DNA of 64,000 bases from the NCBI RefSeq assembly GCF_900116285.1, contig NZ_FPAJ01000001.1, positions 62,001 through 126,000 on the forward strand. The letters are read 5' to 3'. The stretch is from Sulfitobacter marinus. GTDB taxonomy: Bacteria > Pseudomonadota > Alphaproteobacteria > Rhodobacterales > Rhodobacteraceae. Below, one piece after another: positions 46,011 to 53,970 of this stretch. Each line of letters begins with the position of its first letter. The stretch's first letter is position 1. Under the pieces are notes generated by a model, which made no database searches, was not told the origin of the DNA, and saw only the letters and a program-made list of their open reading frames with translations. The position numbers and the translations under genes were made by a program.

Positions 46011-46838
46011 ATGCAACTACTTCGTCTCGCCTCCTTTTCCACCGACAACAAAGGTGGCAACCCCGCAGGCGTCATGATTGCGCCGCAGCTTCCTTCGGAC
46101 AATCAAATGCGCCAGATTGCCGCCGATCTTGGCTATTCCGAAACCGCCTTTGCCAGTCCGCAAGATGATGCATGGCGCGTCCGCTATTTCGCCCCGGAAA
46201 GTGAAGTCCCCTTTTGCGGCCATGCCACCGTGGCCTTGGGCGCGGCACTTGCGGCCCAGCATGACAATGGCGTCTACACGCTGGTTCTGAACGATACGAC
46301 CATCACCGTCGAAGGGCACAGCGAAAACGGCCAGATGCGCGCGGCGCTGCAATCCCCCGCCACGCATAGCAACCCCGCCGCCCCGGACTTAACCGCCGGA
46401 GCACTTGCCCTGCTGGGGCTTGTCCCCGACGATCTGGACCCCCGCATCGCCCCCCGTTTTGCAGGGGCAGGGGCTACGCATCTTATCCTTGCCCTGAACA
46501 GCCGCGATAGGCTGGCGGCAATGTCCTATGATCTGGATGCCGGGCGCGATCTAATGCGGGAACATGGCCTTGTCACAATCATGCTGGTCTGGATCGAAAA
46601 CGATCAGCTGTTCCACGCGCGCAATGCGTTTGCCTCTGGCGGTGTGCTTGAAGACCCCGCAACCGGTGCCGCCGCCGCTGCGTTTTCAGGGTATCTGCGC
46701 GATATCTCATGGCCGCATGGCGGCAAAATCACCATCATCCAAGGCGAGGACATGGGGGTGAAATCCATCATCACCGCTGAAATCCCCGATGAAAAAGGGG
46801 CGTCGATCCGTGTGTCGGGCGAGGTGCGTGAAATCTAG
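46011..46838 (+). CDS. PhzF family epimerase/isomerase-like protein
   Basis: The protein has 275 residues in two similar halves, as in the PhzF/diaminopimelate-epimerase fold. Recognisable blocks are LASFSTDNKGGNPAGVMI (start), the conserved EPFCGHATVALGAAL-type motif (PFCGHATVALGAALAAQH, about 66-83), and DPATGAAAAAFSGYL (about 217-232). The family includes the phenazine enzyme PhzF, but most members are uncharacterised, so no reaction is claimed. Ends four bases into the convergent DUF1194 gene. A perfect dyad covers its start region. Confidence 0.85.
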   Translation: MQLLRLASFSTDNKGGNPAGVMIAPQLPSDNQMRQIAADLGYSETAFASPQDDAWRVRYFAPESEVPFCGHATVALGAALAAQHDNGVYTLVLNDTTITVEGHSENGQMRAALQSPATHSNPAAPDLTAGALALLGLVPDDLDPRIAPRFAGAGATHLILALNSRDRLAAMSYDLDAGRDLMREHGLVTIMLVWIENDQLFHARNAFASGGVLEDPATGAAAAAFSGYLRDISWPHGGKITIIQGEDMGVKSIITAEIPDEKGASIRVSGEVREI

Positions 46839-47542
46839 TCGGCCACCAACTCTGACACTGCCAGCACCTCCAGCTCGCGCAGCAGTTTGCGGGTCATTGC
46901 GGCCTCATAATCTTCAAAACCCAATGCTGTCTCTACGAATGCATCGGGGCCGGTGATCACCTCGGCCCTGAAGTACGAGGGCAGCGCGTTGCTCTCAGAT
47001 GGGTCCGCCACGGTGGCATCTGCCCCGATCACCAGCGCATTCACCGTGATACCCCGCGCGCCAATCGCGTCTTTCACATCGCGGGGACGCGGGCCAAGGT
47101 TCGACATCCCGTCGCCCGAGATATCCAAGGTGCGTTTCCAGCATCCGGGCTGCTGATCCAGATAGTGCGCGCCCAGGGTTATCGCGGTACCCAAGGCTGT
47201 CCCCGGCGATACGTCACGCCGGGTGGTTTGTAACAACGTCTCGATCAATCCGTTCAAAGTCGCGGCATTCTCGATCACAGCCCATGGCGCGATCACCGCC
47301 TGATCAGATGGGCCGCTCCATTCATAAACCATGACCGACACCGGCACGCCGGGCGACGATAGCAGCGCATCGCGCACCGCGATATTGTCCAGTGCTGCCG
47401 CCAGTCCGTTGATCTGCAACCGGTATTCCCGCGCATCGACGGAACCTGATACATCCAACCCAAGCGCCAGCGCCTGACGGCAAGCCGCATCGGCCGCCCC
47501 GCCAAGCGCAAGCGCCAGAACACAGGCCAGTGCACGTATCAT
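46835..47542 (-). CDS. DUF1194 (von Willebrand A-like) secreted protein
   Basis: The product has 235 residues. A signal peptide (MIRALACVLALALGGAADAA) is followed by a VWA-like domain with the MIDAS motif D-V-S-G-S at Asp30-Ser34 and the block VYEWSGPSDQ. The core matches the DUF1194 family: secreted alphaproteobacterial proteins of unknown function that probably bind a divalent ion and a partner. TLDISGDGMSNLGPRPRDV provides another ion-binding strand. The gene lies immediately downstream of a paralogue (4-base overlap, 47539-47542), so the two likely act as a pair. Confidence 0.86.
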   Translation of the reverse strand: MIRALACVLALALGGAADAACRQALALGLDVSGSVDAREYRLQINGLAAALDNIAVRDALLSSPGVPVSVMVYEWSGPSDQAVIAPWAVIENAATLNGLIETLLQTTRRDVSPGTALGTAITLGAHYLDQQPGCWKRTLDISGDGMSNLGPRPRDVKDAIGARGITVNALVIGADATVADPSESNALPSYFRAEVITGPDAFVETALGFEDYEAAMTRKLLRELEVLAVSELVAD

Positions 47543-48291
47543 CCCGCGTCCACCGGTGCGGACAGCATGCCAATCGCGGGGGGTGTAAGCTCGCGTTCCA
47601 GCTTGATCCGCATGGCGCGCTCGTAATCCTCGAACCCGTTGGCCACGACCAAAAACGCGCCCGGCCCGTGCAACACCTCGGACCGGTAAAAGGCGATCAA
47701 TCCGACTTCGGCCTCGTAGTCGGCGGCATTCACCACCAACCCGTTCACGGTGACCCCCTCAAAGGGAAACGCATCATACGCGTGATGCGGTCCGAAGCCT
47801 TCGTTGTTCTGGCCATCTCCGGCTATATCCAGCATCTTGTACAAACAGCGCGGTGCGCGGTCCAACAGACCCGCGCCATAGCCCAACCCATAGCCCATCG
47901 CCGTGGGGAAATCATTGTGGCTGCGTGTGCTGCGGGCGACGGTCTCCGCGGCGCTCAGCAAATCGGCCTGCGTGTCAATTGACGTCCAATCCAGGATTAG
48001 TTGCTGATTGTAGCGCCCCGACCATTCGTAAACCGCCAATGCCACAGGCAGATCGCTGGCGAAAAACGCCTGCGCCACGGCGTCTGACACCAGCGCCGAC
48101 GCCATGCCGCCGCGCTGCAACCGGTCCTCTGCCGCATCGACAGAGCTGGACACATCCATGGCAAGGACCAAGGCCAGACGGCACTGCGCCGCTGCCGCAG
48201 CGGCGGGGGCCAAAAGACCCGCCGCCGTGCAAACCGCAAGCGCAGCCCGCACGGGCCCTACCAGTGGCCGATGTTTTCCATGCTTGTCCAT
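47539..48291 (-). CDS. DUF1194 (von Willebrand A-like) secreted protein, paralogue
   Basis: The product has 250 residues with an N-terminal hydrophobic stretch (about 12-36, AALAVCTAAGLLAPAAAAAA) and the MIDAS motif D-V-S-S-S at Asp46-Ser50. VYEWSGRYNQQLILDWTSIDTQADL, KMLDIAGDGQNNEGFGPHHA and NGLVVNAADYEAEVGLIAFYR repeat the blocks of the neighbouring DUF1194 protein at about half identity by eye. It is exported and of unknown function. It overlaps the gloA gene upstream by 34 bases at its start and the downstream paralogue by 4 bases. Confidence 0.86.
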   Translation of the reverse strand: MDKHGKHRPLVGPVRAALAVCTAAGLLAPAAAAAAQCRLALVLAMDVSSSVDAAEDRLQRGGMASALVSDAVAQAFFASDLPVALAVYEWSGRYNQQLILDWTSIDTQADLLSAAETVARSTRSHNDFPTAMGYGLGYGAGLLDRAPRCLYKMLDIAGDGQNNEGFGPHHAYDAFPFEGVTVNGLVVNAADYEAEVGLIAFYRSEVLHGPGAFLVVANGFEDYERAMRIKLERELTPPAIGMLSAPVDAG

Positions 48292-50836: not shown

Positions 50837-51002
50837 GTCCTTCGGTGCCTCCTGTTGAGTAGTACTTAGTGCCGTAGTAATGAGACCCAACCAACGTTCA
50901 TTGGCTGAGTACATTAAAACATCGTCTGCTTTGGGCAAAAATCAAGGAAATTCCCGGCCTAGTGGTGCTGCGGGGGTGAAAATCTTAGGGAAATCACAAG
51001 AT

Positions 51003-51317
51003 ATGATCATTTACGGGCTGAAAAACTGCGATACTTGCCGCAAGGCTGTCAAAGCGTTGCCTGATGCGCAATTGGTTGATGTGCGGGCAGATGGTGTTTC
51101 GGATGACGTAATGCAGCGGGCATTTGCGCAGTTTGGCATGGCCTTGCTCAATACACGGTCGACCACATGGCGGGGCCTGGACGCGGGCGAACGGGACAAC
51201 GATCCGCTGGTGTTGATCGCGCAGCACCCCACGTTGATGAAACGGCCGTTGATTGACGACGCGGGCACCTTGCATCTGGGCTGGACCAAAGAGGTACAGA
51301 GCGCCCTTGGCGTTTAG
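51003..51317 (+). CDS. ArsC/Spx family thiol protein
   Basis: The 104-residue protein opens MIIYGLKNCDTCRK with Cys9-x-x-Cys12, the thioredoxin-like arsenate reductase/Spx (YffB) pattern. The segment DAGERDNDPLVLIAQHPTLMKRPLIDD follows the family (catalytic region K-R-P). Members include arsenate reductases and YffB-like proteins of unknown function; the C-x-x-C form favours the YffB/Spx side. It converges with the doxX gene with a 4-base overlap (51314-51317). Arsenic resistance is not supported by the context. Confidence 0.84.
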   Translation: MIIYGLKNCDTCRKAVKALPDAQLVDVRADGVSDDVMQRAFAQFGMALLNTRSTTWRGLDAGERDNDPLVLIAQHPTLMKRPLIDDAGTLHLGWTKEVQSALGV

Positions 51318-51856
51318 CGGCGCAGCATCAGCAACAGTTTATCAAGGGACAGCGGCCCCGCGCCTTTGACCAAAAGTGTGATCAGTAACAGCAGCCACAA
51401 TGCGCGTTGATCCATAATGGCCGCATCGGGGATGTGATCGAACCAGCGGCCCAAGGCGTCGTATTGCCCGTGGCCAATGATGTCGGTCGCCGATTGAAGC
51501 AGCACGAAACCGATCATGCCCAACGCAGCCAATCGGGTGAAAAGACCCATCAGTATCAGCACGGGCAACAGGAACTCGGCGCTGGTTCCCGCGATAACAA
51601 TCGCATGGTGAAACAGCCCAAGCGCCGTGCTGTCATAGCCCGCATTGGCAAAGGCGCGGGGGAATATCTGGATATAGGCACCGGCGCTTGGGTTCAGCAC
51701 GCCAAGGGGACCGTCACCCAATTTGGTAACACCGGAATTCAGGAAGTATACGGCCAGTACGGCTGCAAACACCAGCCGGGCAAGGGTGGCCAGCAGCCAG
51801 TCCTGACGTGACAGGGTGGCAGCGATGCGGTCATAACGATCAAGAAGTTGTTGCAT
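51314..51856 (-). CDS. DoxX-family membrane protein of the bufferin operon
   Basis: The product is an inner-membrane protein of about 180 residues with four hydrophobic segments. The early block LARLVFAAVLAVYFLNSGVTKLGDG (about 30-55) is the DoxX signature. It is the last gene of bufA1-bufB-bufC-doxX. DoxX proteins frequently accompany bufferin genes and may take part in redox or copper handling, though the role is unproven. The start overlaps bufC by 17 bases; an upstream ATG at 51871 is an alternative. A 4-base overlap with the ArsC/Spx gene marks the 3' end. Confidence 0.88.
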   Translation of the reverse strand: MQQLLDRYDRIAATLSRQDWLLATLARLVFAAVLAVYFLNSGVTKLGDGPLGVLNPSAGAYIQIFPRAFANAGYDSTALGLFHHAIVIAGTSAEFLLPVLILMGLFTRLAALGMIGFVLLQSATDIIGHGQYDALGRWFDHIPDAAIMDQRALWLLLLITLLVKGAGPLSLDKLLLMLRR

Positions 51857-52607
51857 CCGAGGCCCTTTCATTTGCGCAAAAAGCTTGGCTGGTAAATGTG
51901 ATGGTCAATGCGGCGGCCAGATCGAATTCGGGGGTCGTTGCCGCCGTTGCCTCATAGGCTGCGACCAAGGTTTCGTTCTGACCCAGATGCGCCAGCCAAT
52001 CCGCAGCACCCGGTGGCAGCAGGTTTGGCTCAGGGTCGAAATCCGGCCTTGTGATCAGCACATCCTGCGGCTGCATGACGGGTTTCGGCGCATCTTTGAT
52101 CATGTTGAAACGCCAGATATCAAAAAGCGGCCAAGAAGAGGTTAAGACCCGCGTTGCAGGGGCGAGGGTGAGTGTCTGCGACATCATCGCTTCCTGCGGC
52201 AACTGCTGGAACCCGGTCAAATCAAAGGCGGGGGCGTCCGCAGCATGATAAGACGCCCGCATCGCCAGATCCAACCGCGCGCAATCGGGCAGATATCCGA
52301 GCTTTTCGAGCTGTGGCAACTGGCTAAGGAAGTCCGGGAACGCATCGCCATAATGCATTATCAATGGCGATTTGGGCGGATGCGCGCGGACATAAATCGG
52401 TGCAAGGCTGTTGAAATTTTGCCTACCCAGAATTTTACGTACCAAGGGAAAGGCCGTTTGTAGTGCTGCGATCAGCGAATGGGTGACATTGTTGCGATAG
52501 ACATCATATCGCTTGCCCGCAGGGGTGCCATCGCCGCTTTCCAGCCCGTCCGGAACGGCGGCGGACGGGTCAAGCAGGCCGGCGCGGAAATCGGATTGAC
52601 CTGTCAT
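51840..52607 (-). CDS. bufC: BufC-like DUF2063 protein
   Basis: The 255-residue protein of the DUF2063 family carries the N-terminal domain motif [29 protein letters not shown] (about 33-62), found in BufC/MbnC-like proteins. Such proteins bind the precursor peptide and assist the DUF692 enzyme in modifying cysteines. The start at 52607 overlaps the bufB stop by 4 bases. No catalytic residues are expected in this partner. The name rests on the DUF692 neighbour and the order bufA1-B-C; alone, DUF2063 would be only a putative DNA-binding or peptide-recognition family. Confidence 0.86.
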
Positions 52608-53452
52608 GCGGCAAGCGCATGGGCCGCGCGCTGCGCCTCGGCCCGCAGGGTGAGCCAATCCGGCACATCATTGTCCCACTCAACCAAAACCGGTTTGGGG
52701 CCAGTCCGTGCAAGGGTGTAATCCAGCAAGGCCCAGACGGGATCAATCACGGGTTTGCCATGGCTGTCGATCAGCAAGGGCGCACCCGTGTCATCGGTGT
52801 CTTCGTCATGGCCGCCGACATGGATTTCGCCGACATGCGCCAGCGGATAGGCATCGATATATTGCTGGGCGGATAGGCCCAGATTGGTGGCGGATATAAA
52901 GACGTTATTGACGTCCAGCAGCAGGCCGCAGCCGGTTTTGCGCACAAGTTCGGCCAGAAACTCGGTCTCGGATAGTGTGGATTCAGCAAAGGCGAGGTAG
53001 CTGGACGGGTTTTCAAGCAGCATCTGACGGCCAAGGGTGTCTTGGACCTGGCTGATGTGGCTGGCGACGCGGTTCAATGTGGCGTCGGTATAGGGCAGGG
53101 GCAGCAGATCGTTCAGGAACTCGGCCCCGTGGGTCGACCATGCAAGATGTTCGGAAAAGCTGGCAGGTTGCGCCCAATCACAAAGCTTTTTCAAGCGGTT
53201 CAGGTGGTCGCGGTCCAGCGGGGTTTCGCCCCCGATGCTCAGGCCCACGCCATGAACGGACAGCGCAAAACGTTGCGAAAGCGCGCGAAGCTGGGCAAGG
53301 GGACGACCGCCGTCCCCCATATAGTTTTCTGCGTGGATTTCGATCCATTTCACCGGACCGGGATCGCCGAGGATGTCGTTGAAATGTTGGAGCTTATAGC
53401 CAACCCCCGGGCTGGCGGGCAGTCGGTCAAAGCGGCGTTGACTGTCCAGCAT
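52604..53452 (-). CDS. bufB: BufB-like DUF692 multinuclear iron enzyme
   Basis: The product has 282 residues with a DUF692 TIM-barrel. Strands carry the expected metal ligands: EIHAENYMG (about 38-46), [11 protein letters not shown] (64-74), SEHLAWS (98-104), [13 protein letters not shown] (175-187), and [10 protein letters not shown] (206-215) with LIDSHG. Relatives such as MbnB and TglH use two or three iron ions and oxygen to convert precursor cysteines to heterocycles. In bufferins, central cysteines become thiooxazoles. A GGGAG site precedes the ATG at 53452. It is coupled by 4 bases with bufC. Confidence 0.9.
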
Positions 53453-53489
53453 GACGCGCGCTCCCTTTGGGGGTTCAGGTGTAAGAAAC

Positions 53490-53514
53490 GCAGGCGGTGA
53501 TTGCCACCGCCTGC
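53490..53514 (-). promoter_or_regulatory. Hairpin between bufA1 and bufB
   Basis: GCAGGCGGTG (53490-53499) and CACCGCCTGC (53505-53514) form a perfect 10-base stem with a 5-base loop. In the direction of transcription the stem is followed by GTTTCTTAC, a poor T-run. It lies 38 bases before the bufB ATG and could stop part of the transcription or protect the bufA1 mRNA. Confidence 0.7.
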
Positions 53515-53527
53515 GCCTGATCTAGAA

Positions 53528-53830
53528 TTATGCGGGCAGGTCGCGATCAAGTGGCTCAAGCGAGCCTTTGCGCGCGGAACCGTCTGCCATTTCGGGCAAT
53601 TCCATGGATTCGCATGTGCCTGCGTCAACCAGTTTCCACGAATTACCCTGGTAATCGGTCACGGATGAACCAGCGCATGTGGTGCCCGGACCGGCGGCGC
53701 AATCATTGGCACCGGCCAGCGCCACACCATAGCATTTTTCTTTGGCGGCAGCGTCGGCGGGCGTGCTGTGCGCGGCCATGGCTGCGGCAACGGCACCGGC
53801 GACGGCGAATGTTTTCATTGTGTTGGACAT
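53528..53830 (-). CDS. bufA1: BufA1-type bufferin precursor (DUF2282)
   Basis: The small protein (100 residues) has a signal peptide (about 1-28) and a mature part with four cysteines: Cys33, Cys44, Cys52 and Cys73. The pattern [20 protein letters not shown] and G-T-C-E is that of DUF2282/BufA1 peptides. Bufferins are periplasmic copper-binding ribosomally made peptides; in studied cases some of the cysteines are turned into thiooxazoles by BufB with BufC and the others form a disulfide. This is family knowledge applied here. AGGAGG precedes the ATG at 53830. It heads the operon and is followed by a strong hairpin. Confidence 0.9.
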
Positions 53831-53889
53831 TGTATGTTCCTCCTGATGGTCTGATTGGTAATTCTTATTCGTATCCTAATTAAGCCCAT

Positions 53890-53933
53890 GTTGATGTGAC
53901 AAATCTATTCACGTCAAAGTGTCTCACATCAAC
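53890..53933. promoter_or_regulatory. Long inverted repeat upstream of bufA1
   Basis: GTTGATGTGA (53890-53899) and TCACATCAAC (53924-53933) are perfect 10-base inverted arms 24 bases apart. On the gene strand TTGATG (in the distal arm) with ATAGAT 18 bases further gives a candidate sigma-70 promoter. The dyad lies 60-103 bases before the bufA1 start. A metal- or stress-responsive regulator is likely, but none is encoded beside it. Confidence 0.55.
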
Positions 53934-53970
53934 GTCAGGAAAACCGCTGTTTTTTTGTAATATTTGGCAG

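Follow-up and report, generated by a model that had tools for sequence, protein, structure and literature searches.

The window analysed here, 64,000 nucleotides (nt) of the genome of Sulfitobacter marinus (contig NZ_FPAJ01000001.1, positions 62,001 to 126,000), carries a four-gene bufferin operon, bufA1-bufB-bufC-doxX, preceded by two tandem palindromes that resemble the binding sites of CenR, the regulator of the conserved envelope two-component system CenKR. Bufferins, exported peptides that bind copper, form a large class described only recently; the best-studied operon is tied to an extracytoplasmic function (ECF) sigma factor of heavy-metal stress. The operon of S. marinus is probably a Buf1 bufferin operon without SigF/NrsF control, which CenR would activate at a housekeeping-type promoter through the tandem palindromes. 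An earlier note on this DNA had suggested a bufferin operon that could be under other control and may differ in maturation or metal use. The identity and the other control stood; a difference in maturation or metal use found little support. The control region, at about 53871-53937, lies outside the coordinates 51314-53830 covered by that note. The main features are as follows.

53528-53830, minus strand: bufA1, Buf1 bufferin precursor of 100 amino acids; PF10048 (DUF2282), 84 bits against a cut-off of 22.4

52604-53452, minus strand: bufB, MNIO bufferin maturase; PF05114, 346 bits; NF050167 (MNIO_BufB), 372 bits against a cut-off of 310

51840-52607, minus strand: bufC, DUF2063 partner of the MNIO enzyme; PF09836, 85.9 bits against a cut-off of 27.2

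51314 to 51856 or 51871, minus strand: doxX, DoxX membrane protein; PF07681, 30.1 bits against a cut-off of 23.6

53924-53937, minus strand: CenR-like unit 1, TGACGTTGATGTGA, located with a position weight matrix (PWM) of published sites and by conservation in the family

53909-53922, minus strand: CenR-like unit 2, ACACTTTGACGTGA, offset by 15 bp from unit 1, from the family alignments

53878-53883, minus strand: candidate -10 box TTAATT, 25 nt past unit 2

The interval between thrS, a gene identified from its translation only, and bufA1 contains one strongly conserved block in an alignment of 24 loci of the genus (those of the 35 genus matches that had a locus, the window's own included). 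Its consensus consists of two 14-bp palindromes, TnACR-N4-YGTGA, placed 15 bp apart in offset. The exact tandem pattern was present in 20 of these 24 loci and in 60 of 80 related loci (the best 80 matches kept, all of them named Rhodobacteraceae). A best-match search allowing two substitutions, with a pattern that left out the conserved TnAC ahead, the T behind and the -10 box, placed the element in all 80. Within the window the tandem pattern occurs once, without mismatch, at 53907-53937, the chance expectation at up to three mismatches being 0.24. Searching 120 genomes of the family (this one included) with at most one mismatch gave 50 matches in 48 genomes, of which 46 lie on the same strand as a DUF2282 domain and 151-228 nt ahead of it; two are opposite-strand readings of sites of this kind and two are elsewhere. 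The reversed pattern had no match in the same 120 genomes.

The position of the block relative to the presumed promoter is also conserved. When near-copies were removed from the 80 loci, 66 were kept, and TAnnnT follows the block at an offset of 24 or 25 in 48 of them, while every other offset accounts for seven loci at most. With TAnnnT taken as the -10 box, the palindromes would be centred near -44 (unit 2) and -59 (unit 1), which is a class II activator position. Nearly 30 bp upstream of the -35 region contain columns better conserved than the -10 box itself, arranged as two palindromes. An RNA element was considered and rejected. The YGTG/CACR arms do not pair consistently in the alignment, judged by eye, and a palindrome bound by protein therefore fits better. 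The window's own locus also shows a perfect 10-nt inverted repeat, GTTGATGTGA/TCACATCAAC, at 53890-53933 on the minus strand, which joins a half-site from unit 1 to another TCAC half-site close to the -35 region; this repeat is imperfect in the nearest relative (L031).

The sequence of the palindromes and their place beside the -35 region agree with what has been published for CenR. In Rhodobacter sphaeroides CenR binds TGA-N8-TGA, and 28 of the 31 reported sites are just upstream of the -35 region and co-directional (PMC9275681). In Sinorhizobium meliloti its site is AGTCAC-N6-GTGACT, next to the -35 region and with its centre at -42, as was demonstrated by electrophoretic mobility shift assay with cold competitors and by reporter mutations (PMC9561847). 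A TGA-N8-TGA site (TCAC-N6-GTGA) adjoining the -35 region, which marks the CenR regulon, is present here, the geometry being taken from the fixed -10 box. In a PWM built from the 31 published R. sphaeroides sites, unit 1 ranked second of about 128,000 window positions. Locus by locus, with up to about 25,600 positions in each, its median rank was likewise 2, and it was in the top five in 64 of the 80 loci. The mean best score in the 66 upstream regions was 12.08 as against 5.27 (sd 0.62) with permuted columns, and none of 500 permutations reached 12.08. The best match coincided with unit 1 in 57 of the 66 loci and with unit 2 in six. The orientation of the site is not independent evidence, because it is palindromic and the reverse-complement matrix fits almost equally.

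DUF2282 is found in 85 of the 120 family genomes, and NrsF in 17, of which 14 have DUF2282; in 12 of these 14 no more than 3 kb separates nrsF from the DUF2282 gene. The tandem element (46 genomes) and NrsF (14 genomes) co-occur in none of the 85 bufferin-bearing genomes (Fisher p 4e-6, uncorrected for kinship). Thirty-nine DUF2282 genomes lack the tandem element at one mismatch or fewer, and 38 of their loci were examined, that of G156 starting at a contig end. The SigF-type promoter GTAAC-N17-CGAA (at most one mismatch) was found in 9 of the 14 loci with NrsF and in none of the 24 without. A TCAC-N6-GTGA-type palindrome (at most one mismatch) starts 19-20 nt before GTAAC in eight of the nine SigF-type loci and 29 nt before it, one helical turn more, in the ninth. 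In the 24 NrsF-less loci such a palindrome is present in 23, exactly in nine. A single site of this kind is expected by chance in roughly a quarter of 270-nt regions at one mismatch or fewer by our estimate, so these counts are weak alone and it is the fixed distance to GTAAC that carries weight. On our reading both promoter types share the palindrome and are told apart by their sigma factor: one palindrome goes with SigF, two with a housekeeping-like -10 box. The suggestion of other control thereby gains support and a definite form: a conserved CenR-type element and a sigma70-like -10 box occupy the place of the SigF-type promoter of other genera.

No NrsF was found in the whole 95%-complete genome of S. 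marinus, in which ECF sigma genes, sigF included, were not searched for. The Caulobacter form of the SigF promoter, GTAACC-N16-CGAA, matched only L028 and L068 of 185 loci, and a SigF promoter was rejected for the window, whose own locus (L001) gave no match. Among the 80 related loci the single match runs into the start codon and is therefore probably due to chance.

A class-wide search for the composite of CenR site and SigF promoter gave 17 matches in 15 of 337 genomes (at most one mismatch) and 12 with the reversed pattern, so that most of the matches are due to chance. Twelve composite loci were inspected. L226, from a genome of another family in the same class, is a clear bufferin promoter, with the composite before the bufferin gene and no mismatch. 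In L230 a bufferin gene lies about 0.7 kb off, and the rest, L224 aside, have no bufferin gene. L224 (genome G334) carries at about position 1500 an exact CenR-type palindrome and a SigF-type promoter before a gene for what looks like a secreted protein other than a bufferin. The promoter types were also placed on a BufB tree. This was a quick tree of 73 rows with every second of the 66 dereplicated loci, and many of its forks are weakly supported; L226, lacking the NrsF test, was grouped in it with the roseobacter type despite its composite promoter. The ECF-type loci need four changes on the tree and 12 of the 14 are in one part, while L192, in the other part, has its own SigF-type promoter. 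Joint changes of gene and promoter thus seem to have happened repeatedly, though not often.

The genome encodes nine OmpR-type regulators, one of which, at 1048-1731 of locus L179, is the CenR candidate. It possesses the published CenR aspartates D11-D13, D51 and D56. A single match to it, with 75-100% identity, was present in each of 57 among 61 genomes sampled from the family (this one included). CenR is essential in relatives (PMC9275681, PMC9561847). Two of the four genomes lacking the candidate have DUF2282, and neither has a normal site: G117 shows no palindrome upstream of bufA1, and G073 has only a site with one mismatch at an unusual distance. These two are sisters on the BufB tree and hence count as one event. 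Upstream of the candidate itself there are three GTGA-type sites (10.2, 8.2 and 5.5 bits), and the two that score highest overlap. None of its best 25 NCBIfam matches was a CenR model, and no kinase gene was recognised in the 3.2-kb locus around it.

Several observations weigh against the CenR reading. The candidate was assigned by comparison with published aspartate positions and not with a named CenR sequence. The window's own box, TTAATT, departs from TAnnnT, and a consensus scan offers a competing promoter pair, TTGTCA-18-TAGGAT, at 53902-53873 on the minus strand. The site ranking above unit 1 in the window is inside bufB. Unit 2 alone ranks 153rd in the window (median 18 per locus), and the reverse-complement matrix scores a mean of 11.24. 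The gene tolQ, a CenR target elsewhere, has no good upstream site in this genome, the best being 6.3 bits. The single unit TGACRNNNNYGTGA has 25 matches genome-wide as against 14 for the reversed control, and of the 25 only two are clearly intergenic, one of them that of bufA1; a reconstruction of the CenR regulon from single units was abandoned as too near the reversed control. The published R. sphaeroides table names no bufferin, the presence of bufferins in that species being unchecked, and the main text of the paper mentions neither DUF2282 nor DUF692 (PMC9275681). The exclusion between NrsF and the tandem element rests on few events, namely the four changes on the BufB tree. Neither a SigF-type promoter nor the palindrome was found in two of the NrsF loci, L205 and L208, CenR being unchecked there. 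Finally, we know of no evidence for copper as a signal of CenK.

The element might instead be bound by another regulator, for instance a response regulator devoted to copper or a member of the TetR/MarR type whose palindrome is similar, a reading that we consider possible, though rather unlikely. The double element is almost confined to bufA1 (46 of the 50 matches at one mismatch or fewer), as would suit a dedicated regulator, and any of the nine OmpR-type regulators is conceivable. The close fit to the CenR sites of two species, both in sequence and in distance to the -35 region, argues in the other direction, and Pfam recognised no regulator among the near neighbours in the window, neighbours at other loci being unannotated. 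ChvI was rejected, its published Caulobacter motif, TTGC-N3-GCAA, being unlike the element (PMC9731502), and the Brucella BvrR boxes, as described, are not the bufA1 palindrome.

It might also be thought that the cluster is simply constitutive and that the upstream DNA is a strong promoter or a structural element receiving no signal. The fixed distance of the -10 box agrees with this, as does the near-universal presence of the gene in the genus as a single copy (DUF2282 in 34 of 35 genomes, the sole miss being 84% complete). Housekeeping promoters, however, have no need of nearly 30 bp with two palindromes whose columns are conserved above the -10 box, and the same kind of palindrome precedes SigF-type promoters in other genera, which makes this explanation improbable. 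Least probable of all, and scarcely credible, is that a SigF-like ECF factor encoded elsewhere still controls the operon. Caulobacter SigF does govern a second, unlinked DUF2282-DUF692-DUF2063 operon (PMC3511200), and the search of this genome left its ECF sigma genes aside; yet NrsF is absent, and the counts given above for GTAACC-N16-CGAA and for GTAAC-N17-CGAA speak against it. CenR activation at the tandem palindromes remains the reading that we prefer.

As the earlier note had stated, the four genes form a single minus-strand unit, which is borne out by the Pfam and NCBIfam matches, by the overlaps of the second to fourth genes (ATGA between bufB and bufC; bufC and doxX overlap as well) and by the spacing of 75 nt between bufA1 and bufB. 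The profile searches placed the protein at 53528 inside DUF2282 (PF10048) and BufB inside PF05114 and above the MNIO_BufB cut-off. The bufA1 protein had no NCBIfam match, and bufC and doxX remained under the cut-offs of HvfC (41 bits; cut-off 142) and HvfX (27 bits; cut-off 80). BufB has a relative with a solved structure (3bww, E 6e-44) and its closest match, 92%, in a Sulfitobacter genome; for bufC the sequence search gave no relative with a solved structure. The core bufferin set consists of precursor, MNIO enzyme, DUF2063 protein and DoxX, whereas sigma genes occur in Buf1 clusters outside this core (PMC12452194). The absence of an ECF factor beside the operon is for this reason not odd in itself. 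Both the DUF2063 partner (PME type 1) and the DoxX gene, which is frequent in Buf1 clusters but optional, are present here. A second DUF2282 precursor was ruled out by a search of the genome, which gave a single match. Two DUF2282 genes near each other within one genome were seen in G066 (C18) and in G158 (C45).

The cysteines of BufA1 are at positions 33, 44, 52 and 73, exactly as claimed; their number and their spacing, 11-8-21, are identical in all 80 related loci, in all of which the precursor gene stands directly ahead of bufB. The N-terminus has, by eye, a positive residue, a hydrophobic stretch and small residues before about residue 28, like a signal peptide. In Buf1 the two central cysteines are modified and the outer two disulphide-linked (PMC12452194, Fig. 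3 legend), and the modified pair corresponds to Cys44 and Cys52. Judged by their sequences, the proteins are the standard Buf1 bufferin set. A different maturation or metal use was therefore rejected, since cysteine number and spacing, MNIO family and DUF2063 partner are all standard, and nothing tested favours a different metal use. The only difference noticed in the precursor is the C-terminal tail, here RDLPA: RD[LIMV][PA] occurs within the last 12 residues in 79 of the 80 loci and is absent from several ECF-type precursors. In the window it is encoded at 53531-53545, beyond the stretch matched by DUF2282.

By analogy with the characterised family, BufA1 would be made with a Sec-type signal peptide, BufB together with BufC would oxidise Cys44 and Cys52, probably to thiooxazoles, and the exported peptide would buffer copper in the periplasm, DoxX presumably being an accessory membrane protein. 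As to its control, phosphorylated CenR probably binds the two palindromes ahead of bufA1 and would switch on the housekeeping-type promoter in the manner of a class II activator. A further element is located within the operon.

53489-53515, minus strand: 11-bp hairpin between bufA1 and bufB, a possible partial terminator or processing site

A stem of at least 7 is found at this place in 58 of the 80 loci as against 4 of 80 mononucleotide-shuffled ones. The hairpin probably keeps the precursor mRNA above that of the enzymes.

The Caulobacter crescentus operon CC3254-CC3257 is, as we take it, identical with the C. vibrioides Buf1 operon. It comprises DUF2282, DUF692, DUF2063 and DoxX genes, the same four families in the same order as here (PMC3511200), and like ours is of the Buf1 type with four cysteines (PMC12452194). 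It is numbered next to sigF and a DUF1109 regulator, and is SigF-dependent with GTAACC-N16-CGAA (PMC3511200), whereas the genome of S. marinus has no NrsF and its operon carries CenR-type units in tandem and a sigma70-like -10 box. In the CenKR regulon of R. sphaeroides, TGACR-N4-YGTGA likewise stands just upstream of the -35 region and most of the target genes encode exported or envelope proteins (PMC9275681, Table 1), but no bufferin is named there, and here two units follow each other at a 15-bp offset. At the srlA promoter of S. meliloti TCAC-N6-GTGA likewise forms an inverted repeat, next to the -35 region in class II position and with its centre at -42; it is a single unit, and its target is a thioredoxin-fold protein and not a bufferin (PMC9561847). 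The NrsF-type operons of other Rhodobacteraceae genera (for example L188, L189 and L192) share DUF2282, BufB and a palindrome of the same kind in the same place. They differ in having one palindrome, nrsF mostly nearby and, at the distance given above for eight of nine loci, a SigF-type promoter.

The flanking genes scanned with Pfam encode an ArsC-family reductase, a cold-shock protein, an MFS protein with unassigned substrate, a hydrolase and polyhydroxybutyrate (PHB) proteins. In agreement with the earlier note, no sigma factor, anti-sigma factor or known copper exporter was among them, some having no Pfam match at all. The ArsC-family reductase gene (50880-51317, plus strand) is convergent with doxX, the 3' ends overlapping by 4 nt, and two neighbouring DUF1194 genes of unassigned function are located at 46835-48291 on the minus strand.

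How bufferin operons are switched in the family was an open question, because 71 of the 85 bufferin-bearing genomes lack NrsF. A conserved operator and a named candidate regulator make it directly testable. Among the open-licence papers listed in a literature search, none linked CenR or CenKR with a bufferin, DUF or MNIO term. The sequences are most simply explained if a CenR-type activator works at every one of these operons and the roseobacter type has either lost the ECF layer or never acquired it. For the Rhodobacteraceae as a whole we lean, by a small margin over even, to the view that CenKR is the basic bufferin switch and SigF/NrsF an optional layer; in roseobacters a further CenR site and a housekeeping promoter would take the place of that layer. 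If this is true, bufferin production would belong to a general response of the envelope rather than being a metal response of its own, and copper buffering would have its place inside the CenKR envelope response.

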